NCBI GenBank assembly: GCA_018604165.1 | Contig: CP075895.1 | Location: 1,855,001-1,919,000 of the forward strand | DNA from: Chitinophagaceae bacterium LGM1 | GTDB lineage: Bacteria; Bacteroidota; Bacteroidia; Chitinophagales; Chitinophagaceae | DNA length: 64,000 nt | Direction: 5' to 3' | Part shown: positions 804-60,856 of the stretch, in pieces | Position numbering within the stretch: the stretch's first letter is position 1 | Layout: each line of letters opens with the position of its first letter | Program-made: the position numbers and the translations under genes | Notes under the pieces: model-generated | Seen by the model: only the letters and a program-made list of their open reading frames with translations | Database searches by the model: none | What the model was told of the DNA's origin: nothing

Positions 804-1394
804 ATGAACGTAAAGACAATAATAGTAGCTACAGCAATAGTATGTATGGCACAAATTGCCAAGGCGCAACCATACAGCATTGCAGGCAAGGTAGCTGATG
901 CCAAAGACCAAACACCCCTGACTGGTGTAACAGTAACCGTAGCCCCCATAACAGATACCGCAAAGAAGACAGGCAGCGTTACAGACCCCGATGGCAACTT
1001 TAGTATAGAGAACCTGAACGCAGGTAAGTATCTACTGAAAATAAGCTACATAGGCTTTGAGCCTTATACCCGTATGCTGAACATGACAAGCAATACCAAC
1101 ATCGGTACAATAGGCCTGAAAGCCAATAGCTCGGCTTTAAAAAATGTAACAGTAACAGAAAAGCAAAAACGTGTGGAGCAATTGGGCGATACTACCCAAT
1201 TCAACGCGAATGCTTATAAAACCAACCCCGATGCTAATACAGACGACCTGCTGCAAAAAATGCCCGGTGTAACTACAGAGCAAGGTAAACTGAAAGTAAA
1301 CGGTGAAGAAGTAAAACAGGTATTGGTAGATGGCAAACCTTTTTTTGGCGATGACCCTGCTGCGGCCATTAAAACCTGCCAGCCGAAGTGGTAG
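804..1394 (+). pseudogene. N-terminal part of a frameshifted outer-membrane beta-barrel protein
   Basis: This codes for the first 190 or so residues of a TonB-receptor-like protein: a signal peptide (about 1-21, ending AKA-Q), a carboxypeptidase-regulatory-like domain (about 26-110, with the DPDGNFSIENL and YIGFEPY segments), then the start of a plug-like domain (LLQKMPGVTTEQGKLKVNGE, VLVDGKPFFGDDP). The frame breaks after DPAAAIK: the family sequence continues as NLPAEVVDKIQVFD, and that is exactly what the next frame encodes. One A appears to be missing in the run at 1371-1374. The rest of the protein is read in the frame of 1388-3610. The cause may be a real mutation or a sequencing or assembly error. 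Confidence 0.85.
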
Positions 1395-3610
1395 ATAAAA
1401 TACAAGTGTTTGACAGGCTGAGTGAACAGGCACAGTTTACAGGCTTTGACGATGGCAACGCGCAAAAGACCATCAATATCATAACACGTAGCGGCAAGAA
1501 CAACGGGCAGTTTGGTAAAGTATATGCAGGCTATGGTACAGACGGGCGATACACGGCTGGTGGTAACGTCAACCTTTTTAAAGGCAACAGGCGTATATCA
1601 ATACTTGCATTATCCAACAACATCAACGAGCAAAACTTTTCTACCGAAGACCTTGTAGGCGCATTGGGTAGTAGCAGTGGACAGGGACGTGGTGGGTTTC
1701 AACGTCCAGCTGGTATGCGTGGCGGTGGCAACCGTGGTGGTGGTATGGGTGGTAGTAATGACATGAGCAATTTTTTGGTAAACCAGCAAGGTGGTATAAC
1801 AGGCACACACGCATTGGGGCTGAACTATAGCGACAATTGGGGTAAGAAGATAAAAGTTAGTGGTAGTTATTTTTTCAACGCTACAGACAATGTAAACACT
1901 ACTACCCTAAGCCGTACCTACCTGACGGCGCAGGATAATAGCCTTGTATATAACGAAACATCTGCTGCCGACAATAAGAACCAGAACCATCGCTTGAATA
2001 TGCGATTGGAATATGACATAGATTCATCTAACAGTATAGTGCTGACACCGCGTGTAAGCCTGCAATTGAATGATAACACCAACACGCTTGCGGGTGCTAA
2101 TACCCTACCCACAGGTTTGTCTTTTGGCAATACTAATACTACCACAACAGCAGATAATACAGCACTTAACTTTGGCAATAACCTGCTATACCGCCACAAG
2201 TTTGCCAAACGCGGGCGCACTATATCTTTCAACATAAACACACAGATAAACAACCGTGATGGTGATGGGACTAACTATGCCAACTACCGCTTGCCAACAG
2301 ACACTACCCTGCTCGACCAGCAATATACCCTTACCACACGTGGTTATACTATTGCTCCATCACTTAACTACACCGAACCTATTGGCAAAAACGGACAATT
2401 GCAAGCCAACTATTCGCCCAGCTACACAAAAAACGAGGCAGACAAACAGACCAATAACCTGAATATTGCAGCCAATACCTATACCGACTTTGATACGCTG
2501 TTGAGTAACACCTACGACAACATCAGCATACGCCACCGTGGCGGGCTTGCATACAGATACAATGATAAGAAGCAGACCATCAATATAGGTGCAGATGCAC
2601 AATACACTACGCTGGATGGTACACAGTATTTCCCTACGGCTTTCAGTACCGATAAGCAGTTTACTAATATACTGCCCAATGCCATGTACAACTACCGCTT
2701 TAACACCAGTACCAACCTGCGCATCATGTACCGTACCAATACAGATATACCCGGCATCAGCCAATTGCAAAACGTGGTGGACATCAGTAACCCATTGCTA
2801 TTGAAAACAGGTAACCCCAACCTGCAACAATCTTACAATCATAGATTAGTAACACGCTTTGGTGGTGTGAATCCAAAATCGGCCACCAGCTTTTTTGTAT
2901 TTATAACAGGCAGTGCTACCAGCAACTATATAGGCAACGCCACTTTTATACCACGTGCCGATACGGTGATAAACAACTTCAGCGTAGCACGTGGCAGCCA
3001 AATATCACTACCTGTAAACCTCGATGGTTATTATGAGGGCAGAACATTTGCTACTTATGGCTTGCCTGTGGGTTTTATTAAAAGCAATGTAAACTTCAAT
3101 GCCGGGCTTAGCTATGTACGCACACCAGCCATCATCAACAATCAACTGAACTATAATAACAACTATGGCATAACGGGCGGTGTAACCATCGGCAGCAATA
3201 TCAGCGAGAACCTTGACTTTACTGTGGGCTATACAGGTAGCTACAACAAGGGCATCAATACACTGCAAACACAAACCGACAACAGCTACTACAACCAAAC
3301 TACGACACTACGCTTCAACTGGCTGCCGTGGAAACGGGTGGTGTTGAATACCAATGTAACGCACACATTATATACAGGGCTTGGTGCAGGCTTTAATCAA
3401 AACTTCGTGCTATGGAATGCAGGCGCGGGTTATAAATTCCTGAAAGACCGTTCGCTGGATGTAAGGCTCACCGCGTTCGACCTGCTGAACCAAAACACAG
3501 CCGTTACCCGCAATATTACAGACACCTATATTGAAGACAGCAATACCAATGTATTGACCCAATACTTTATGCTGAATGTTACCTATACTTTGAGGAAGTT
3601 TAAAGGGTAA
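1388..3610 (+). pseudogene. C-terminal beta-barrel part of the frameshifted receptor (OMP_b-brl_3 type)
   Basis: This is the downstream frame of the same gene. It opens with VDKIQVFDRLSEQAQFTGFDDGNAQKTINI, split here as VDKIQVFDRLSEQ and AQFTGFDDGNAQKTINI, the conserved junction of the family. A glycine-rich linker follows (GGGNRGGGMGG), then about 600 residues of alternating aromatic/polar strands typical of an outer-membrane beta-barrel, ending in FMLNVTYTLRKFKG. With the upstream part the intact product would be about 935 residues, a normal length. The codon at 1388 is only the first ATG in this frame and is probably not a natural start. Members of the family act in uptake or export across the outer membrane; the substrate is unknown. 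Confidence 0.8.
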
Positions 3611-3613
3611 AGC

Positions 3614-3643
3614 CTCTTATGTAGCATACTCTTATGTAGCATA
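3614..3643. repeat. Perfect 15-bp tandem duplication
   Basis: CTCTTATGTAGCATA occurs twice head to tail (3614-3628 and 3629-3643), immediately after the stop codon of the receptor gene. It looks like a recent slippage event. Confidence 0.9.
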
Positions 3644-3711
3644 AAAAAGCAATTCATATACAACAAAAACACAATGCATTATTAATGCTATTAGTTTCGT
3701 AGTTTAGAGAT

Positions 3712-3719
3712 TACCTTTG
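3712..3719 (+). promoter_or_regulatory. -7 element TACCTTTG of the E1 gene
   Basis: A perfect TAnnTTTG element lies 28 bases before the E1 start codon. The upstream -33 half is weak (TTAG/TTTC around 3691-3698). Confidence 0.5.
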
Positions 3720-3746
3720 TACATACTTATATTATAGCTACCGATT

Positions 3747-6143
3747 ATGCTGCAAGAAGCTACATCTACACAAACAGAAAGATTATCGTTCGACGAGTTT
3801 AAGCTGGGCGTACTGGAAGATTATCATCTTGCCATTGCCAGTCGTGAGGCCAGCCTGATAGGCAGAAGAGAAGTGCTGACTGGCAAAGCCAAATTCGGCA
3901 TCTTCGGCGATGGTAAAGAACTCGCGCAGATAGCTGTATCTAAATGTATGCAGCCTGGCGATATACGCAGTGGTTACTACCGCGACCAAACCCTGATGTT
4001 TGCTACAGGGATGAGTGATATTGAAAAATTCTTTGCACAGCTATACGCCAACCCCGACTTAGATAACGAACCATCTACCGCTGGCCGTATGATGAACGGG
4101 CATTATGGTACACGCTGGCTGGATGCCAATGGTGATTGGGTGGACCTTACACAAGACATTCACTCATCCAGCGATATATCGCCCACGGCAGGGCAAATGG
4201 TACGTGCATTAGGGTTAGCTTTTGCATCCAAATGTTACCGCAATATTCAGGAATTACAGACAGGCTTTGAGAAGTTTACACGCAATGGTAATGAAGTAAT
4301 ATTCTGTACCATTGGCGATGCATCTACATCTGAAGGGCTGTTTTGGGAAACGGTAAACGCAGCAGGTGTATTGCGTGTGCCGATGGCTATATTCGTATGG
4401 GACGATGGATATGGTATATCCGTACCACGTAAATACCAGACAACGAAAAACTCCATCTCCGAAGCCCTTTCAGGTATGCAGTGGGACGAAGCTACCGGCG
4501 GTTTAAACATATACCGAGTAAAAGGTTGGGACTATGCAGGTATGCTGGATACGGTACAGAAAGGCATAGCCCGTGTGCGCGAAACACACATCCCTGCCAT
4601 ATTCCACGTACAGGAAGTAACACAGCCGCAAGGGCACTCCACATCCGGCAGTCATGAGCGTTACAAAAGCAAAGAAAGACTGGAATGGGAAAAAGAATGG
4701 GATTGTATTACAAAGCTTCGCGACTTCATCCTTGAAAATGAAATAGCTGCCGAAGAAGAGATACTGCGCATAGAAGATGATGCCAAGCAACAGGCACGCG
4801 ATGCTAAACAACGCGCTTGGGATAATTTCATCAATCCCATTAAAGAACAGATACAACAGGCTACGCACCTGTGCAATCAGGTAGTGTACGAAGGTGGCCC
4901 TACGGCTGCTATGATAGCCGAGATGGTAACAAAGCTCAACAGCATTCGCGAGCCCATCCGCAAAGATGTGATGCAAACTGTGCGCCGTATTCTTACACTC
5001 TGTAGTGGCAATAGCGAAGCAGTGCGTGGGTTACGAAATTTTTACGATTACCTGCAACAAGACAATAGAGATAAATTCTCATCTCACCTGCACAGCGAAA
5101 GCCGCCACAGTGCCATGAAGGTAACAGAAGTACCGGCCGTATATATGCCCGATGCACCACAATTAAACGGTTACGAAATACTCAACAAATTCTTCGACCA
5201 TACATTTGCCACCAACCCTGCCGTTGTTGCTTTTGGAGAGGACCTCGGTAAGATAGGTGACGTGAATCAGGGTTTTGCAGGCTTGCAGGAAAAATATGGT
5301 GAAGGCAGAATATTTGATGTAGGCATACGCGAGGCTACAATTATAGGGCAAGGCTTAGGCATGGCTATGCGCGGTTTGCGCCCTATAGCAGAAATACAAT
5401 ATCTTGACTATTTATTGTACGGTCTGCAACCATTGAGCGATGATGTGGCTACCATGCTATACCGTACCAAAGGCGGGCAAAAATGCCCGTTGATAGTACG
5501 TACACGCGGACACAGGTTGGAAGGTATATGGCACAGTGGCTCACCCATTGGCATGATATTGAACAGCATACGCGGCATGTATCTTTGTGTGCCTCGTAAC
5601 ATGACACAGGCTGCAGGTATGTATAACACACTGTTGCAAAGTGATGAGCCGGGTATAGTAATAGAATGCCTGAACGGTTATCGCTTGAAAGAGAATGTGC
5701 CAGCCAATCTATCTACCTACACCGTACCATTTGGTGTACCTGAGGTGATACGTTATGGTACGGATATTACTATCGTATCGTATGGTTCTACACTCCGTGT
5801 TATTGAAGAAGCAATAGTAAATTACTTAGAGCCTGCAGGTATTAGTTGCGAGGTGGTGGATGTGCGTACACTCCTGCCTTTCGACGTGAATAATATGATA
5901 CTGGAATCGTTGAAAAAAACAAACCGTATAGTGTTTGTTGACGAAGATGTACCGGGTGGTGCCAGTGCCTTTATGTTCCAGCAAGTGATGGAAAAGCAAG
6001 GCGGTTATCGATGGTTGGATGTTGCACCACGTACTATAACTGCGCAGGCACACCGCCCTGCTTATGCAACTGATGGCGACTACTTCTCTAAACCAAATGC
6101 GGAAGATATAGCAGCTATCATTGAAGAAATGATGGCAGAATAA
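3747..6143 (+). CDS. Fused 2-oxoacid dehydrogenase E1 component, alpha and beta subunits
   Basis: This thiamine-diphosphate-dependent decarboxylase component of a branched-chain 2-oxoacid or pyruvate-type dehydrogenase complex has 798 residues. Alpha part, about 20-440: the ThDP motif runs from GDASTSEG near residue 190 to WDDGYGISVP near 222. Beta part, from about 470: FGEDLGKIGDVNQGF, then IAEIQYLDYLLYG, and a transketolase C-terminal domain (ITIVSYGSTL, VDVRTLLPFD). Both subunits are in one chain, a form common in Bacteroidota. The gene is monocistronic here, with no E2 or E3 beside it, so the exact substrate cannot be read from context. Its own promoter and a strong terminator frame it. 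Confidence 0.9.
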   Translation: MLQEATSTQTERLSFDEFKLGVLEDYHLAIASREASLIGRREVLTGKAKFGIFGDGKELAQIAVSKCMQPGDIRSGYYRDQTLMFATGMSDIEKFFAQLYANPDLDNEPSTAGRMMNGHYGTRWLDANGDWVDLTQDIHSSSDISPTAGQMVRALGLAFASKCYRNIQELQTGFEKFTRNGNEVIFCTIGDASTSEGLFWETVNAAGVLRVPMAIFVWDDGYGISVPRKYQTTKNSISEALSGMQWDEATGGLNIYRVKGWDYAGMLDTVQKGIARVRETHIPAIFHVQEVTQPQGHSTSGSHERYKSKERLEWEKEWDCITKLRDFILENEIAAEEEILRIEDDAKQQARDAKQRAWDNFINPIKEQIQQATHLCNQVVYEGGPTAAMIAEMVTKLNSIREPIRKDVMQTVRRILTLCSGNSEAVRGLRNFYDYLQQDNRDKFSSHLHSESRHSAMKVTEVPAVYMPDAPQLNGYEILNKFFDHTFATNPAVVAFGEDLGKIGDVNQGFAGLQEKYGEGRIFDVGIREATIIGQGLGMAMRGLRPIAEIQYLDYLLYGLQPLSDDVATMLYRTKGGQKCPLIVRTRGHRLEGIWHSGSPIGMILNSIRGMYLCVPRNMTQAAGMYNTLLQSDEPGIVIECLNGYRLKENVPANLSTYTVPFGVPEVIRYGTDITIVSYGSTLRVIEEAIVNYLEPAGISCEVVDVRTLLPFDVNNMILESLKKTNRIVFVDEDVPGGASAFMFQQVMEKQGGYRWLDVAPRTITAQAHRPAYATDGDYFSKPNAEDIAAIIEEMMAE

Positions 6144-13465: not shown

Positions 13466-14221
13466 TTACTCCTCACGCCATTCTTTTCCAGTCAGGTTTA
13501 AGAACACGTCTTCCAAATTGGCTTCTTTTACCTGCTTGGTGCGTTTAAAGCCTGTAGCTATCAGGTTGTCTATCAATGCATCGGGGGTATTGAGTGCTAT
13601 GATAGTGCCGCTATCTACAATGGCTACCCTGTCGCACAGCACCTCTGCCTCATCCATATAGTGCGTGGTAATTACAACGGTAGTGCCTCTGTCGCGCACT
13701 TGCTTTATCAGCTCCCACAAATTGCGCCTTGCTTGCGGGTCGAGCCCAGTTGTGGGTTCGTCCAAAAAGATAATAGCGGGCTCATTAATTAAAGTAGTAG
13801 CAATAGAAAAACGCTGCTTCTGCCCACCCGATAATTCTTTGAATTTGTTTTTTGCTTTATCGCGCAGGTTAACGGTATCGAGCAAAGCAAGCGCATCTAC
13901 GGTTCTGTTGTACAAACCAGCAAACAAGTCTATGATTTGCAGCAGATTCAGGTTAGGATAATACCCCGCCGCTTGTAGTTGCACACCGATTATCTTTTTT
14001 ATTTCGTTGGCATCTTTATCAAGGTTCAGCCCCTTTACCCATACTTCGCCCGATGTTTTTTCTCGCAGTGTTTCAATGATTTCCAGCGTGGTGGTTTTGC
14101 CTGCTCCGTTTGGGCCAAGCAGCCCGAATATCTCACCCTCTTTCACTTCAAAACTAATGCCTTTAACTGCCGTAAAATCACCGTATTTCTTAACCAGATT
14201 ATTAACCCTGATGATGCTCAT
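13466..14221 (-). CDS. ABC transporter ATP-binding protein (ABC-2 type)
   Basis: ATPase subunit of a drug-, polysaccharide- or lipid-exporting ABC-2 transporter. Walker A is LLGPNGAGKTTT (about 34-45), followed by the signature LSGGQKQR, Walker B IIFLDEPTTGLDPQ and the H-loop VVITTHYMDEAE. The C-terminus (NLEDVFLNLTGKEWREE) is typical of the DrrA/CcmA-like group. No permease gene is adjacent, so its partner must lie elsewhere. The upstream neighbour is the rRNA methyltransferase, 25 bases away on the same strand. The ATG at 14221 gives the usual MSIIRVNNL start. Confidence 0.92.
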   Translation of the reverse strand: MSIIRVNNLVKKYGDFTAVKGISFEVKEGEIFGLLGPNGAGKTTTLEIIETLREKTSGEVWVKGLNLDKDANEIKKIIGVQLQAAGYYPNLNLLQIIDLFAGLYNRTVDALALLDTVNLRDKAKNKFKELSGGQKQRFSIATTLINEPAIIFLDEPTTGLDPQARRNLWELIKQVRDRGTTVVITTHYMDEAEVLCDRVAIVDSGTIIALNTPDALIDNLIATGFKRTKQVKEANLEDVFLNLTGKEWREE

Positions 14222-14245
14222 AGACTGCAATTTACATAGTAAGCC

Positions 14246-15202
14246 TTATTTTTCAATCAGGTAGCAACACCTGTGCAGCTTACCCTGAAAATCGAATGGT
14301 GTAGTAGCAGCCGTAATATCTTTGATGTGTGGTGTTGGTAGGCTGTCTTTATCAAGTACAAAGTTTCGGTAGTTGTTGCTAAAATATATTTTACCCCCAT
14401 CCCTGCATCCCTTCAGTAGTTGCTTCAACAACCATACATGGTCGCGTTGCACATCAAAAGTTTCTTCCATTCGCTTGCTGTTAGAGAATGTAGGCGGGTC
14501 GCAAACGATGATGTCAAACGTATCGGCTGGTATATCGCGGATGATGTCCATTACATCGCCATGTACAAATTCATGCTTATCGCTATCATACAGTTTATTG
14601 TACTGCATATTGCGTTTAGCCCAGTTGATGTATGTTTTAGATAAATCAACCGAAGTAACACTTGCGGCACCACCATGCGCTGCATACACACTGAAAGAAC
14701 CCGTATAGCAAAACAAATTCAGTACACGTTTGCCCTTAGCTTCTTCGCGTACCATATGGCGGGTAATGCGGTGGTCGAGAAACAAACCTGTATCCAGATA
14801 GTCTGTCAGGTTGATGATGAAATTAAGCCCATTTTCAGGTACAATTCGTTCTGTCTTTTGCTCTGCAAATTTTTCATACTGCCCTTGCCTGCCTGCTTTG
14901 CGTTGGCGTATCTTCATAAAGATATTTTCAACTGGCAATTCTAACACCGCAGCAATCGTTTCTTTACATGCCTGTAGCCAAGCCTCGTGTTCATCATCTT
15001 CCATACCATGCTTGCGTTTATACTCGGCAGCATGTACTACGTCTTTGTATAGCTCTATGGCAAAAGGAAACTCCGGCAAATCGTGGTCGTAAAAGCGAAA
15101 GCAAGCAACATCTTGCCTGCGCGCCAGTTTGCTGAAGTGTTTATACACTTTCCGCAGGCGGTTATCAAACATCGGCAGCTTGGCAGAAAAATCAAATGAC
15201 AT
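14246..15202 (-). CDS. Class I SAM-dependent rRNA methyltransferase (RlmK/RlmI-like)
   Basis: 318 residues. The sequence follows the C-terminal half of RlmKL (RlmK, 23S rRNA m7G2069) and RlmI: FRFYDHDLPEFPFAI near 36-50, KIRQRKAGRQGQYEK, ENGLNFIINLTDYLDTGLFLDHR, the SAM-binding motif VLNLFCYTGSFSVYAA, VTSVDLSKTYINWAKRN, and the catalytic-type DIIVCDPPTFSNSKRM. The N-terminal THUMP/RlmL half is absent, so it is a stand-alone form. Base and position specificity cannot be told from sequence alone. The start at 15202 follows a -7-like TATCTTGC. Confidence 0.85.
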   Translation of the reverse strand: MSFDFSAKLPMFDNRLRKVYKHFSKLARRQDVACFRFYDHDLPEFPFAIELYKDVVHAAEYKRKHGMEDDEHEAWLQACKETIAAVLELPVENIFMKIRQRKAGRQGQYEKFAEQKTERIVPENGLNFIINLTDYLDTGLFLDHRITRHMVREEAKGKRVLNLFCYTGSFSVYAAHGGAASVTSVDLSKTYINWAKRNMQYNKLYDSDKHEFVHGDVMDIIRDIPADTFDIIVCDPPTFSNSKRMEETFDVQRDHVWLLKQLLKGCRDGGKIYFSNNYRNFVLDKDSLPTPHIKDITAATTPFDFQGKLHRCCYLIEK

Positions 15203-37016: not shown

Positions 37017-37223
37017 AGTCTTGGCGAGGAGTTGTGAGGCACGAAGCCATCTCACGGAATGAGTGCCTGCTCTACGCGAATTATTTGCGGCGCTGCTTAC
37101 CTGCGCTTCCTTTCTTTCTTTTGGCAGCAAAAGAAAGAAACAAAGAAAAGCTGCCATAGACCAATGACAGAAAGGTCTATGGTGGCTATCTATTAAGCTG
37201 TATTGCTACTGTACTGCCAAGCT
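37017..37223. repeat. Outer inverted repeat, left arm
   Basis: About 207 bases whose reverse complement recurs at 40701-40947. Shared blocks include the hairpin CATAGACC/GGTCTATG (about 37155-37182), the hairpin TTTCTTTCTTTT/AAAAGAAAGAAA (37111-37140), GGAAGCGCAGG, and GAGATGGCTTC. The right arm has an extra stretch of about 40-60 bases in the middle. Confidence 0.9.
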
Positions 37224-37238
37224 AAACAATACTACTTG

Positions 37239-37346
37239 CTCACAACACTCGCGTCATTGCGAGGTACGAAGCAATCTCACGATAACATGGGAATTGTCCC
37301 ACTGTCCCAAAATATAGTAACTGGTTTTCTGGGACACTTGGGACAG
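37239..37346. repeat. Inner inverted repeat, left arm
   Basis: About 108 bases ending 2 bases before the OLD-like stop codon. They match the reverse complement of 39283-39384. The arm has two parts: a CGTCATTGCGAGG...CGAAGCAATCTCAC element of a type I recognise as a widespread intergenic palindromic repeat, and a TGTCCCA/TGGGACA palindrome with ACCAGTTAC-like centre. Confidence 0.88.
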
Positions 37347-37348
37347 AA

Positions 37349-39190
37349 CTATTTTATGAATGCAGAATTAACATGCTCAAAAAACGTTTTAAACAGAGAT
37401 AATGATGAATGAGATAATATTTTTTTTAGATGTTCGTCATATTCCTTCGATTCAGAAAGCATACCCCACATCGCTGCAAATTCTTTTTTACTGACTTTAT
37501 TACCTGCATTGTCAGGTAAAAGCATATCTCTAATACTTTGCTTTTCAACTTTGGTAAAGCAATCTTCTATTTTTTGATTAGTTGATGGTAGATAATAAAC
37601 TTCATTCGTTAGGTTGTACATTTCAATGTATTTTTGACCTGCAGTATTACCAGCATCGTCGCTATCTAAAAGGATTTTAAAATCTGAATTCCAACCAATG
37701 TTTAATGAGATTAGCTCAGATAAATTATGTGCTGAGTTGCCAGGATAAATGACAAAATCTGGAGCTTTGCCGTATAATATTCTGTAGATTGAAAGTAGAA
37801 CATGTCTATCTGTAGGACCTTCCGTAATGATACATTTTTTCCAAGGAACATCTAGTGAGTGTGGGATAATGTTTAATAGGTTGGCTAAGGGTTGGTAATA
37901 ATGAACCTGAGCATCTTGTTTATTTAAATATACACCCCACTTATGAGCTTTAACTATACCATCTTCTTTTTCAATAACATAAGTATTTTTGATGTTTTCT
38001 AGGGATATTAGATATTGACTATGTGTTGTGTAAATTATGCATGTATCTTTTGCCAAAGCTTTAAAATCGTCAATCATATTAGATTGGGCAGTTGAATGTA
38101 AATTTGAAGCAGGTTCATCTATTAAGAAAACAGGAGTTCCAAAGTTTTTCCTCAATTTTTTACTTCTAAATTCTGTTTTCATAAGGAATGATAGATACCA
38201 TAATGCCCCTTTACTCCTTTCATCGACAGAATAAGTTGTACCATCTTTATCTTTAACTTTTAATGTAAAATATTGTTTTGAAGTTGAATGAATAAAATCA
38301 AGTTCTGTTGTGTCTATCTCTTTAACACCAGATAAGTCCTTCCATTTTGTAGTAAAAGTATCATTCAATGTTTTATTAACACGAGTCTGTACTGTAGATG
38401 CGTCATCATGCATTGGATTAGTTTTAGAATAAAATTTGGCAAATTTGCTAATACTAAAACTGTTGTCAGTGTTATAAAAAAGTCCATCAATAATATCATA
38501 CCATATGGGATCAAACGAATCTGACTTCTTATTAATGTAAATCCTTTCTGGTATTCTATCTTTAAAATCCTCAAAGTATATTATGAAGGGGCATATATTA
38601 ACTATTTCCATTGCTAGATAACTAGACAATTCATTTTGAGCGAATGGATGGTCAGATTCAAACCTATAAAAAAACCTATGAGGCTTGCCATCTTTGAAAG
38701 GAAATACTCTTGAGATTACTACTTCTTTTTGTTTATTTATGTGATGAAGAAAACCATTAATACCATTAATCTGTTCTTCAGATAATTCTGTTTTATGTAG
38801 TTTTTTTAAGCTAGGAACTTTTAGTTCTTCTTCAATTTTAATAACAGCTGTAATAGTTGCTGGTTTGTTACTACCAATATCAGATTTCTTCCTTATAATT
38901 TTGAAAAAATTGGGATTAACATCTTGGCTAGGATCATTTAGAAAACTAAATGCTTCTATCGCCTTTAGAATTGTTGTTTTACCACTTTCATTTAACCCTA
39001 GTAGTAATACTAAGTTATTTTTAACTAAATCAATTTCTACTTCATCAATACCTTTAAAATTAGTTATCTTAAATTTTTGATAACTTAACTTTGGAGTATA
39101 ATCAGGTAAACTGTGCTTACGAGCTTTTGTAAAATCACTAAATACATTGTTGATTAAAATTTTGTAGTATAAATCTAAAATCTGTAGCAT
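37349..39190 (-). CDS. OLD-family ATPase with C-terminal TOPRIM nuclease domain
   Basis: 613 residues. The ABC/SMC-type ATPase part has FKITNFKGIDEVEIDL, Walker A GLNESGKTTIL (about 70-80), a serine-rich signature region SKGALWYLSFLM, Walker B PVFLIDEPASNLH and the H-loop TTHSQYLI. The TOPRIM part (about 470-560) has CIITEGPTDRHVLLS (glutamate), then LLDSDDAGNTAGQKY (DxD type) and QKIEDCFTK. OLD-like nucleases cut nucleic acid in an ATP-dependent way and several serve in phage defence (OLD, GajA). No UvrD-like partner is present. Codon use is strongly AT-rich compared with its neighbours, and it lies exactly between inverted repeats, so horizontal acquisition is likely. Confidence 0.88.
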   Translation of the reverse strand: MLQILDLYYKILINNVFSDFTKARKHSLPDYTPKLSYQKFKITNFKGIDEVEIDLVKNNLVLLLGLNESGKTTILKAIEAFSFLNDPSQDVNPNFFKIIRKKSDIGSNKPATITAVIKIEEELKVPSLKKLHKTELSEEQINGINGFLHHINKQKEVVISRVFPFKDGKPHRFFYRFESDHPFAQNELSSYLAMEIVNICPFIIYFEDFKDRIPERIYINKKSDSFDPIWYDIIDGLFYNTDNSFSISKFAKFYSKTNPMHDDASTVQTRVNKTLNDTFTTKWKDLSGVKEIDTTELDFIHSTSKQYFTLKVKDKDGTTYSVDERSKGALWYLSFLMKTEFRSKKLRKNFGTPVFLIDEPASNLHSTAQSNMIDDFKALAKDTCIIYTTHSQYLISLENIKNTYVIEKEDGIVKAHKWGVYLNKQDAQVHYYQPLANLLNIIPHSLDVPWKKCIITEGPTDRHVLLSIYRILYGKAPDFVIYPGNSAHNLSELISLNIGWNSDFKILLDSDDAGNTAGQKYIEMYNLTNEVYYLPSTNQKIEDCFTKVEKQSIRDMLLPDNAGNKVSKKEFAAMWGMLSESKEYDEHLKKILSHSSLSLFKTFFEHVNSAFIK

Positions 39191-39191
39191 G

Positions 39192-39223
39192 GTGCTTAGT
39201 TTTTATATATATAAAAATAGCAC
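39192..39223. promoter_or_regulatory. Large palindrome in front of the OLD-like start codon
   Basis: Arms GTGCT (39192-39196)/AGCAC (39219-39223) enclose the perfect palindrome TTTTTATATATATAAAAA (39200-39217). It ends two bases from the ATG at 39190. It could be an operator, or an RNA hairpin covering the translation start. Confidence 0.6.
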
Positions 39224-39282
39224 TATTATCTACTACAGACTGTTACTGTAATCCACAAAATGTGAATAATTACGATTTAATC

Positions 39283-39384
39283 AGTCCCAGTGTCCCACCG
39301 TACCAGTTACCATATTTGGGACAAGTGGGACAAACCCCTGTTATAGTGAGATTGCTTCGTGCCTCGCAATGACGCGAGAGTGAG
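39283..39384. repeat. Inner inverted repeat, right arm
   Basis: Reverse-complement partner of 37239-37346, lying 60-90 bases upstream of the OLD-like palindrome. It contains GTCCCAGTGTCCCACCG..., ATTTGGGACA and then the GAGATTGCTTCGTGCCTCGC element. Confidence 0.88.
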
Positions 39385-39400
39385 TAAGTGTTATCAATCT

Positions 39401-39448
39401 GTCCCAGTGTCCCACCGTACCAGTTACCATATTTGGGACAGTGGGACA
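39401..39448. repeat. Direct second copy of the GTCCCA palindrome
   Basis: The first 40 bases (39401-39440) are identical to 39284-39323. TGTCCCAC and GTGGGACA form a hairpin inside the unit. It lies between the inner right arm and the end of the RepA-like gene and may also act as its terminator. Confidence 0.9.
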
Positions 39449-39469
39449 ATGCGGGACAGTTACTTACTG

Positions 39470-40498
39470 CTAATCTTTCAGTATGCGGGCTACTGTACTT
39501 TTACTTGTGCCAAGATGGTCGGCAATATCTCTATAACTACAATCAGGGCAATCGTCCGCTACACGTTTTACTTCTTCTACCAACCACTCTCTATCCCTCT
39601 CATCGCTGGTTTTCAGGTGTTCTTGTTCGGTGCCATAGCCCGTTAGGGTAAATTGCAGAAAGTTGTGAGGCTTCTCTATGCGGCAGTGTGCAACGTTCTT
39701 TTCGTGGTAGATGATTTCGGTATTGCGGGCTTTTATCTGCTTTATGTAGCGCATACCTGCCTGTGTGCCGCTCTCGCCAATACAAAAGCTGCTGTCGCAA
39801 AAGTTCATCAGCATCTTGCTGCCCTGTAGGTCGTTGCGGTTCAGGGGTTTGCTCATATCGCGCTTGGGCGTGTGGGCAAGTGCCAGTATGCTCAGTCCGT
39901 ACTGCTGTTTCAGGGCTTTCAGGTGCTTCATCAGCGGTAGTGCGTCTTTGGCTTTCTCGGTTTCTTGTCGCAGGTAGGTTATGTTGTCTATCACCAATAT
40001 CCTCGCACCTGTTCTGGTAACAGCTGCTTCTATGCTGTCGTACAGGTAATCGTCAAAATGGGTGTACTTGTCGGGTATCTCATCATCGGGGTTCATCTCT
40101 GCCCTGCGCAGGTTGGGGCTGAAGCTGTAGTGCTGTGCATAGTCTATACTATACCGCGCTTCAAACTGTTTGTCGAACAATTCAAAATCGAAATACACAA
40201 CGGGCTGTGCATTGGCTGTCATCTTAAAGCCCTCAATGGGCGTGCCACGGCTGATGCTGTCGGCTATCTGCACGGCCAGTATGCTTTTGCCCGTGTTGGT
40301 ATCTGCAAACAGTATGCAGAGTTCTCCCTCGTGCCATAGCTCGCTGAAAAGCATTTTGGGTACGGGGCGGCGGCTGGCTTGTTGCAGCCATTCGTTGGCT
40401 GTTTTCATAATAAAGAGTCCGCTGTGTTTCTGTTCGTAGTAGTCAAACATCAGGTCTTCGACGGTGGGTTGGGCATTTTCATTTGGTGAATTAATCAT
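39470..40498 (-). CDS. RepA-like hexameric ATPase with C-terminal helix-turn-helix
   Basis: 342 residues of the RecA/DnaB-like AAA_25 (RepA helicase) type. Walker A is FADTNTGKSILAVQIAD (about 63-79), an acidic strand is PVVYFDFELFDKQFEARY, Walker B is ARILVIDNITYLRQE, and a motif-3-like LALAHTPKRDMSKPLNRNDLQGSKML follows. The last 50 residues read as a small HTH (CSYRDIADHLGTSKSTVARILKD). Proteins of this kind sit in plasmids and integrated elements of Bacteroidota. Local G+C is higher than the backbone, opposite to the OLD-like gene downstream. The HTH together with the palindrome over its promoter suggests self-regulation. Confidence 0.82.
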   Translation of the reverse strand: MINSPNENAQPTVEDLMFDYYEQKHSGLFIMKTANEWLQQASRRPVPKMLFSELWHEGELCILFADTNTGKSILAVQIADSISRGTPIEGFKMTANAQPVVYFDFELFDKQFEARYSIDYAQHYSFSPNLRRAEMNPDDEIPDKYTHFDDYLYDSIEAAVTRTGARILVIDNITYLRQETEKAKDALPLMKHLKALKQQYGLSILALAHTPKRDMSKPLNRNDLQGSKMLMNFCDSSFCIGESGTQAGMRYIKQIKARNTEIIYHEKNVAHCRIEKPHNFLQFTLTGYGTEQEHLKTSDERDREWLVEEVKRVADDCPDCSYRDIADHLGTSKSTVARILKD

Positions 40499-40531
40499 AA
40501 CAATAAATGTTTAAAAGGTTTAGAATGTAAT

Positions 40532-40547
40532 TTGTACAAATGTACAA
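40532..40547. promoter_or_regulatory. Palindromic operator over the RepA-like promoter
   Basis: TTGTACA-AA-TGTACAA is a perfect 7-bp inverted repeat with 2-bp spacing. On the minus strand it contains TACATTTG (40544-40537), a perfect -7 element 39 bases before the ATG at 40498. A dimeric repressor bound here would block the promoter. Confidence 0.6.
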
Positions 40548-40700
40548 TAAATATTAAAATAGTAACGTAGAATTGTTATTAACAAAGGGTGGATAAATAG
40601 TTGTGAGGAGTGAGGTATAAGGCGTGAGTCTTTTTGTCAACCGCGAAGACGCGAAGGCGCAAAGATTTCCGCAAAGCAATATAAACAATAGAAGCCCTAC

Positions 40701-40947
40701 AGCTTGGCAGCACAGTAGTAATGGAGCTTAATTGATAGCCACCATAGACCTTTCTGTCATTGGTCTATGGCAGCTTTTATTCATTAATTGTTTGTCTTTT
40801 TTATTGGTATTTATGCTGCTTCGCGGTCTTTGTTTCTTTCTTTTGCTGCCAAAAGAAAGAAAGGAAGCGCAGGTAAGAGTGCGGCAAAAACTCACGTAGA
40901 GCAAGCCCTTATTTCGTGAGATGGCTTCATACTTCGCCATGACGCGT
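40701..40947. repeat. Outer inverted repeat, right arm
   Basis: Reverse-complement partner of 37017-37223. Matching starts at AGCTTGGCAG (40701) and runs through GATAGCCACCATAGACC, TTTCTGTCATTGGTCTATGG, the TTTCTTTCTTTT/AAAAGAAAGAAA hairpin and GGAAGCGCAGGTAAG to GTGAGATGGCTTC. An extra TTATTCATTAATTG-like stretch (about 40778-40835) is absent from the left arm. Confidence 0.9.
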
Positions 40948-40953
40948 GTTCAC

Positions 40954-60763: not shown

Positions 60764-60856
60764 AATTCAAAATTAAAAAGTCAAAAATCAAAAAACACAT
60801 CATTAGGAACATGATGAAAAGCTTTTTGAATTTTGGCTTTTGACTTAAAAGTTTGA
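60764..60856. repeat. Long imperfect palindrome between accB and accC
   Basis: Centre CATCAT (60798-60803)/ATGATG (60811-60816). Flanking arms are AAAAAGTCAAAAATCAAAAA on the left and, reversed, TTTTTGAATTTTGGCTTTTGA on the right. It would fold into a long AT-rich hairpin in the mRNA. A related half-element lies at 36846-36880. Confidence 0.65.

Follow-up and report, generated by a model that had tools for sequence, protein, structure and literature searches.

The locus at positions 37,017 to 40,953 of a 64-kb stretch of Chitinophagaceae bacterium LGM1 DNA (64,000 nucleotides of contig CP075895.1, hereafter the window) encodes a RepA-like ATPase and an OLD-like ATPase inside two nested shells of repeats. 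We interpret it, with a probability of about 60%, as a replicon-derived platform that exchanges defence genes and is built on cognate replication origins. Most related RepA genes have at their 3' end a hairpin of iterated words that varies together with the C-terminal helix-turn-helix (HTH) of the protein, and in this genus a second hairpin of the same word lies beyond a cargo gene that differs from locus to locus. In what follows, G000 is the source genome (3.32 Mb), G001 onward are relatives, and L numbers denote individual loci; the genus comparison set comprises 15 genomes including G000, with 20 RepA copies (loci).

The outer and inner inverted repeats, the direct copy of the inner arm and the two genes described in an earlier reading of the DNA from sequence only (the sequence-only reading) were all recovered at their places (Table 1). 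The order along the window is RepA, hairpin, repeat A, hairpin, OLD, hairpin, repeat A, outer arm and ileS. A hairpin finder, requiring a 6-mer at least twice forward and then at least twice in reverse within 95 bp, returned four matches in the window, three of them at this locus and the fourth a low-complexity TCAAAA sequence at 60767. Over 125.5 kb of G000 loci it returned 27 matches, versus 0, 0, 0, 0 and 1 in five first-order Markov shuffles. Folded as DNA, the three window hairpins scored z values of -4.8, -3.0 and -4.1 against shuffles. Six terminator-like sites (GC stem plus T run) were found, none coinciding with the three window hairpins.

Table 1 Features of the locus and of one related G000 site (window positions unless a locus is named).
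Feature	Position	Strand	Remarks
RepA-like replicative-helicase-type ATPase, 342 aa, C-terminal HTH	39470..40498	-	open reading frame; Pfam AAA_25, structure model, fold search
RepA gene part encoding last 42 residues (HTH)	39470..39598	-	varies among loci together with hairpin word
Near hairpin 1, word TGTCCC (3+2)	39400..39458	.	from base +12 past RepA stop; z -4.8; putative origin/Rep-binding site
Repeat A, CGTC-type palindrome	39346..39376	.	between both near hairpins
Near hairpin 2, word TGTCCC	39284..39331	.	
Cargo, OLD-like ATPase, 613 aa	37349..39190	-	open reading frame; PADLOC Old, Pfam AAA_15
Far hairpin, word TGTCCC	37295..37345	.	from base +4 past cargo stop; inverted relative to near copies
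Repeat A, second copy	37247..37282	.	outside far hairpin
Outer left arm	37017..37223	+	genome-wide repeat family, not locus-specific
Outer right arm	40701..40947	-	same family as left arm
Outer inverted pair, segment 1	37096-37146/40827-40877		51 nt, 100% complementary
Outer inverted pair, segment 2	37143-37223/40701-40781		81 nt, 93%
Outer inverted pair, segment 3	37036-37085/40886-40935		50 nt, 80%
Inner inverted pair	37245-37311/39315-39381		67 nt, 82%
Inner inverted pair, further part	37289-37341/39286-39338		53 nt, 77%
Direct copy of inner arm	39279-39323/39396-39440		98%
Repeat-flanked genes without RepA, G000	L055 4859-9822		D12 methylase; 268-aa ORF of no Pfam family; BT4734/PriCT-2 and DUF3987 genes

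The RepA-like protein matches Pfam AAA_25 (1.2e-21), and its C-terminal matches to HTH_38 and HTH_24 lie below the cut-offs. The structure model (pLDDT 85.1) has C-terminal helices at residues 322-329 and 333-341, and its top folds are KaiC, DnaB and T7 gp4, with query-length TM-scores of 0.39-0.54 among the matches listed; a sequence-profile search of the PDB returned one irrelevant match only. RepA is present in 10 of the 15 genus genomes, and none of its 20 copies contains an internal stop. Among 44 other relatives a single weak match was seen (2.6e-6). A pattern scan of named genomes yielded 382 related stretches, of which 80 were kept, nearly all under Bacteroidota-named records; the exceptions are L088 and L089 (Azovibrio), L133 (Bacillota) and L123. 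The contigs of L088 and L089, labelled Azovibrio restrictus (a proteobacterium), match G011, a genome assigned by the search to this Bacteroidota genus, and probably represent a mislabelled metagenome-assembled genome. RepA relatives on viral contigs are distant (22-43% identical, 45 loci).

Across Bacteroidota, most RepA loci have an iterated word directly 3' of the gene. Words were scored in 83 loci (94 locus entries less 10 duplicates and L155), in a zone from -20 to +115 of the RepA stop, with 1660 random places more than 1.2 kb away in the same loci as controls. At least four copies, on both strands, were present at the RepA 3' end of 78 loci and at 70 random places, and at least five copies at 68 loci and 14 random places. 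The strict 2+2 hairpin finder detected opposed word sets directly 3' of RepA in 75 of the 83 loci, and a looser test requiring three copies on both strands was passed by 79 (not by L087, L137, L149 or L152), versus 421 of the 1660 random places.

The word and the HTH vary together. For the 79 loci passing the three-copy test (the four loci without a word being dropped), word distance correlates with HTH distance at r 0.573, and at r 0.472 in a partial Mantel test given the RepA core (0 of 999 permutations, null standard deviation 0.034). The correlation is also seen within the genus alone (19 loci, r=0.326, 0/999 permutations). At the level of single residues, 33 loci with a comparable helix were aligned with their words (three unparsed, the L067 word entered by hand, and other HTH/word classes left out). 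Lysine at a variable helix position goes with C at word position 4 (7/7 loci with Lys, 0/26 without), and arginine in TVxR goes with C or G at word position 6 (11/11 with Arg, 1/22 without); the corresponding Fisher values, which ignore kinship, are 2e-7 and 6e-8.

Stronger evidence comes from closely related RepA cores, which can differ in both parts. Of the eight genus pairs whose cores are more than 88% identical, seven differ completely in word and also differ in HTH: L088/L089 (100%), L088/L090, L089/L090 and L072/L091 (each 99%), L066/L067 (95%), L067/L068 (94%) and L066/L068 (92%). Outside the genus, 63 pairs exceed 88% core identity, and the word-distance cut applied to the genus pairs is passed by none of them; exchange of HTH and word together thus marks this lineage. 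These patterns suggest that the C-terminal HTH of RepA probably recognises its own hairpin word, and by analogy with other initiators the hairpin is a putative RepA origin.

In the genus, the RepA hairpin forms one side of a gene slot. The near hairpin begins at base +1 to +13 past the RepA stop in the 20 loci, and every listed cargo open reading frame (ORF) is co-directional with RepA. Most slots hold one main ORF, and L069 holds three. Nineteen of the 20 loci, with 10 different words among them, repeat their word in another cluster 1-2.2 kb past the near hairpin; L087 does not. The distance from the cargo stop to the far hairpin is 2-13 bp in 12 loci and 70-168 bp in L064, L067, L069 and L235, and in L088 and L089 the far clusters begin 4-5 bp past the cargo stop, the automatic value being skewed by a stray word or further cluster. 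In 14 of 17 loci compared by BLAST the near and far copies match best in inverted orientation, which is weakly defined because the hairpins are near-palindromic. By eye, GIY-YIG-like and DUF559-like ORFs adjoin the repeats in L053, L064, L065, L067, L068, L134 and L235.

These observations bear on the proposal, made in the sequence-only reading, of a cargo locus marked by its repeat arms. The proposal is supported for the inner shell, where a same-word cluster encloses differing cargo in 19 of 20 loci; for the outer shell, whose arms occur genome-wide, the evidence leans against it. Inversion between the arms, also proposed there, finds no support, since the cargo keeps one orientation in all 20 loci and both orientations were not found.

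The slot frequently carries genes of anti-phage type. The window cargo was correctly read as OLD-like: it matches PADLOC Old (1.9e-24, residues 38-593) and, with an N-terminal ABC/SMC-type ATPase domain, Pfam AAA_15 (4.3e-19). Its C-terminus gave no Pfam TOPRIM match at 1e-3, yet the Old profile aligns through residue 593. A conserved partnership of OLD with RepA was considered and rejected, as no close relative of the cargo is present in the 14 other genus genomes (best match 113.8 bits over residues 35-389 in G010; three more of at most 25 bits). Of 19 genus cargos searched with PADLOC (L091 being left out of this set), 11 match below 1e-5, two match weakly (4-5e-4) and six do not match; among 10 chromosomal control genes one matched, a sigma-54-activator-like ORF. 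The types comprise Old (window), AbiU, bSEFIR, a TIR effector, SpbK/ThsB-type TIR, GajA-like, PDC-S31, ThsA-type SIR2, Fic-type PDC-S04, ThsB-type TIR and a weak SIR2, with best E-values of 2e-96 for bSEFIR, 1e-51 for PDC-S31, 9e-35 for the Fic-type PDC-S04, 4e-30 for ThsA and 3e-29 for AbiU. The L091 cargo is 64% identical to that of L064 over 213 residues, and the words of their RepAs differ (TGCCCA versus TGTCCC); this is the only homologous pair among the slot cargos at 1e-4.

Comparison of shared chromosomal sites indicates how the slot content changes. In G002, G005 and G008, RepA occupies one common site with three different cargos. At the site shared by L066 and L068, the two loci are approximately 90% identical up to about 137 nt before the RepA stop, do not match through the HTH end, the hairpin and the cargo, and become similar again 60 bp past the L066 cargo. 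HTH, word and cargo thus differ together beside a near-constant core, the pattern of a 3' block exchanged as a unit, presumably by homologous recombination through the conserved core. A different site, common to G006 and G000, holds RepA and an AIPR gene in the former and repeat-flanked genes without RepA (L055) in the latter. The ileS-to-gapA interval of the window, for which comparison among relatives had been proposed, provided no clean empty site: in all 14 relatives the 1.5 kb before ileS lacks the gapA side, OLD and RepA, and in none of the 14 does RepA lie within 1.5 kb of the gapA side.

Cassettes bounded by the same kind of hairpin also occur without RepA. They were read partly by eye, since the finder catches only the better hairpins, and those of G000 were selected by similarity to the window arms, so that their TGTCCC hairpins do not constitute an independent sample. 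In L057 (223-aa gene), hairpins of TATTCAC, TTTTCAC and TGTTCCA, together with repeat A, follow one another from the outside in on both sides, with one unpaired TGTAAC hairpin. The words TTCAC, TTCGC, TAAC and TCCC flank the L056 cassette (210 aa) in mirrored order, with the inner pair repeated on one side and additional TGCCCA and GCTCAC hairpins outside on one side. Only TGTCCC hairpins surround the L054 cassette (200 aa). In the same locus, at 14046-14876, a further same-word pair (TGTATC) surrounds a 245-aa ORF without a Pfam match.

A further RepA-less arrangement is a two-gene array upstream of ileS in another genome (L341, G009:C11:11500-18500, 991-3955), with hairpin clusters of five words around genes of 246 aa (no Pfam or PADLOC match) and 428 aa (weak TPR). 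Hairpins of TTTCCA, TTTCA, TTCAC and TTCAA lie 1-2 bp past each ORF stop in the same order, and the left end carries a roughly reversed cluster of TTCAA, TTCAC, TTCCA, TTTCCA and TTTCA. These words differ from those of the two RepAs of G009 (TGCTCC and TGCCCA). Across L054, L056, L057 and L341, 13 distinct words were counted by eye; nine are genus RepA words, TGTAAC is seen only with RepAs elsewhere, and TGTATC, TTTTCAC and TTTCCA are seen with no RepA. Searches for RepA remnants at the RepA-less cassettes gave noise only (E 0.2-1). Two relatives, G006 and G002, have an empty L057 site of about 150 bp; 10 further relatives carry the marker gene but, the partner gene not being found within 1.5 kb, are uninformative. 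These RepA-less cassettes suggest movement in trans.

Such hairpins are infrequent in control stretches. The finder returned seven matches in 399.8 kb of G000, one of them (TGTTGC) iteron-like by eye; four, none iteron-like, in 399.8 kb of G013, a genome that gave no RepA match; and five in 394.8 kb of G006, of which TGTTGC and TGTTCA are iteron-like. A TGTTGC iterated hairpin is present in both G000 and G006 (L266 8166-8221 and L324 1377-1431). Gene content also varies by genome in a hot spot upstream of a 309-aa gene (L054 upstream of 9111; L251-L261, L342-L346), with a 200-aa gene in G000, a DUF2971 gene in G006, a NACHT protein in G002, an AAA_15 protein in G008, pentapeptide and nucleotidyltransferase genes in G005, two small ORFs in G012, and little or nothing in L256-L259 and L261.

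Outside the genus, RepA and its hairpin have a more uniform context. A DUF6371-like ORF, identified with a profile of at most 13 proteins of this kind from the same loci (Pfam DUF6371 itself being run on one, L053), starts at most 450 bp past the RepA stop in 52 of the 56 non-genus loci that have 1.5 kb or more of downstream sequence; of the remainder, L117 and L134 have such an ORF further on and L126 and L157 have none. Among the 50 non-genus loci whose upstream sequence extends 4.5 kb or more, 39 have an integrase-like match at most 5.5 kb before RepA, and in L098 the upstream gene or genes match Pfam phage integrase (4e-20) and HTH_17. Three loci, L098, L125 and L144, adjoin mnmE as judged by eye. 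In L135 a same-word hairpin lies at -3177 to -3128 from the RepA stop, about 10 bp past the stop of an integrase-like ORF, and this hairpin and the RepA hairpin bracket a 446-aa gene, small HTH ORFs and RepA. In excerpts of PMC13183296, Tn4555 is listed with an ATPase and DUF6371; together with the integrase and DUF6371 context, this makes the RepA-hairpin-DUF6371 unit look like the replication part of integrative elements. In the genus, a DUF6371-like ORF lies 1.8-3.6 kb past RepA in 8 of 19 loci checked, and a DUF6371-like protein is encoded in 8 of the 15 genomes, with one copy in G000, at its second RepA. No integrase match was obtained in any of 29 genus loci totalling 418 kb, including the window locus and L341 (8 queries, E<1e-3; other integrase families could be missed). 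The statement in the sequence-only reading that integrase and transposase are absent thus stands for integrase within those queries; no transposase is evident among the ORFs of the locus, although no search was aimed at one.

In a midpoint-rooted tree of 79 RepA cores (L087 left out), the 19 genus loci and L117 form one clade with support 0.985. L117, from a record named Bacteroidia bacterium, shares the genus-type geometry (word ATTCCA, a cargo of 318 aa and, further on, a DUF6371-like ORF), which suggests that the cassette form arose within this single RepA lineage.

Several known systems share parts of this architecture. As in integron cassettes with their attC sites, hairpins lie by ORF stops, ORFs point in one direction, single genes are exchangeable, and L341 is a two-gene array; unlike in integrons, no integrase was found (IntI was not among the queries), recognition appears to be by the Rep HTH, and the hairpin word varies among loci. 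P4-like satellites carry variable defence genes at a fixed place of a satellite-type element, whereas in our loci hairpins co-varying with the Rep protein mark the slot. Origins of Staphylococcus aureus pathogenicity islands (SaPIs) and phage-inducible chromosomal islands (PICIs) are described, in excerpts of PMC7581432 and PMC6092414, as lying directly 3' of the initiator gene with two iteron sets around an AT-rich region, the SaPI Rep reading the iterons with its C-terminal domain. The likeness to our loci extends to opposed iterons directly 3' of a helicase or initiator with a primase nearby. However, RepA here is an AAA_25 protein with a DnaB/KaiC-like fold, not a DUF927 or D5-type Rep, and the genus loci repeat the origin-like hairpin beyond the cargo and have no integrase found. 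Tn4555-like integrative mobilizable elements of Bacteroidota also combine an AAA ATPase followed by DUF6371, an integrase and an excisionase (excerpts of PMC13183296 and PMC5704250; L098), a likeness of gene content. They differ from the genus loci in their integrase (excisionase was not searched for in the genus) and in that, where DUF6371 occurs at the genus loci, cargo separates it from RepA.

The outer arms belong to a different category of repeat. The left arm has 18 matches in the 3.32-Mb G000 and the right stretch (40600-40953) has 29, with partial matches and the arm itself counted in each case; the inner arms match a separate set of genome places. The outer arms were accordingly rejected as ends of this island alone, and their recurrence leans towards the view that the island is old sequence beside common intergenic repeats, the counts being of matches and not of enclosed genes. 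At L060 4857-5414 (G000 633856-634413), a Y1 (IS200-like) transposase gene stands beside a partial outer-arm copy and may be the driver of this repeat family. Outer-arm copies also lie within a stretch of DnaB-like and RecT-like ORFs (L058 4000-11300, G000; prophage-like by eye). Repeat A appears to belong to the CGTC-tagged repetitive extragenic palindromes (REPs) described in excerpts of PMC3733652. G000 resembles genomes with REPs and REP-associated tyrosine transposases (RAYTs), or with TIRtrons, in its CGTC-type palindromes and its Y1 transposase gene flanked by repeats (PMC3733652, in excerpt), and such systems may explain repeat A and the outer arms but leave the iterated-word hairpins unexplained.

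We propose that the DnaB-like RepA probably loads at its own origin, the iterated-word hairpin 3' of its gene, which would be read by the C-terminal HTH. In the genus and L117, a cargo, often anti-phage, lies between this hairpin and a second same-word hairpin, which as a rule directly adjoins the stop of the cargo. Nested hairpins of other words on RepA-less cassettes may be traces of earlier stays beside RepAs of other specificity. Entry of a cassette is envisaged by RepA/primase-dependent copying between cognate hairpins, aided by host recombination, a route favoured over a dedicated recombinase because no recombinase was found nearby. It is also conceivable, although we put this somewhat below an even chance, that these are a distinct class of gene cassette, in which single defence genes bounded by Rep-origin words move between genomes without a recombinase or transposase of their own, Rep-HTH/word pairs act as swappable compatibility tags, and nested shells record earlier host replicons. 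In the open-licence PubMed Central literature, no description was found of co-variation between HTH and word, of cargo enclosed by same-word origins or of nested hairpin shells.

Several points weigh against the proposed exchange platform. Binding, replication and movement are all inferred, and origin function is assigned by analogy. The near/far pair is direct in 3 of the 17 compared loci (L066, L067 and L099), L087 has no pair, and L091 and L235 fall outside the comparison; in L099 the second exact-word cluster lies off the cargo end, and BLAST shows a diverged copy just past the cargo. Words of other loci are also clustered in 5 of the 20 genus loci (L062, L070, L071, L072 and L091), with five clusters in L071. 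Outside the genus, a second same-word cluster is present in 5 of 47 loci with enough sequence, only L117 having the genus geometry; in L114, L134, L135 and L140 it lies upstream instead. A DUF6371-like ORF is absent within 6 kb, or to the locus end, from 11 of 19 genus loci, including the window, and 8 of the 19 tested cargos have no PADLOC match better than 1e-4. No target-site duplication is readable at the empty L057 site, and several genus genomes are fragmented.

Among other explanations, the locus could be a decayed integrative mobilizable element, a Tn4555-like remnant minus the integrase, in which the second hairpin is a duplicate of the origin and cargo turnover reflects a host recombination hot spot with RepA uninvolved. 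The integrase-like and DUF6371-like genes beside most non-genus RepAs and the ATPase and DUF6371 listed for Tn4555 (PMC13183296, in excerpt) are consistent with such an ancestry. So is the 309-aa-gene site, where cargo differs in G000, G006, G002, G008 and G005 and a RepA-kind hairpin is found only in G000 and G006. Decay would, however, lose the match between hairpins, and the far hairpin keeps the near word in 19 of 20 loci across 10 words, with no internal stop in any of the 20 RepA copies; several words in mirrored order in the RepA-less L056 and L057 cassettes also argue against it. We regard decay as a rather unlikely account, and consider it improbable that the hairpins are operators on which RepA, through its HTH, loops the DNA to control a toxic defence gene. 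Such a regulatory bracket would fit the co-variation of HTH and word and the placement of cargo downstream of, and co-directional with, RepA in 20/20 loci, which makes co-expression plausible. However, the hairpin is also present at cargo-less RepA loci, between RepA and the DUF6371-like ORF, and RepA-distant cassettes keep words that no RepA found in that genome has.

Re-replication of the cargo from two mirrored origins on RepA induction, raising defence gene dose during infection, would draw on the iteron clusters at both ends (mirrored in several loci), the helicase-type fold, and the DUF6371-like gene in 8 of 19 genus loci. By itself, however, amplification leaves the nested shells and RepA-less cassettes unexplained, and the window copy has no DUF6371-like ORF within 6 kb, so that we consider it very improbable. 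Slighter still is the likelihood that the arms drive inversion or that a RAYT-type transposase moves the island as a composite transposon via the outer arms: those arms are indeed inverted and a partial family copy adjoins the Y1 transposase gene, but cargo orientation is fixed in 20/20 loci and the outer-arm family occurs at many other sites.

If the exchange platform built on cognate origins is correct, it would add a mechanism for the one-at-a-time exchange of anti-phage genes. The slot would also point to unknown defence genes, since several family-less cargos share it with TIR, SIR2, OLD, Fic and AbiU-type genes. Beyond defence, the likely target of each RepA appears to be written beside its gene, so that hundreds of relatives (382 stretches) could allow an HTH recognition code to be tested directly. 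Pairs such as L072 and L091, nearly identical in core but different in HTH and word, are ready-made for testing what may be a natural protein-DNA recognition code.

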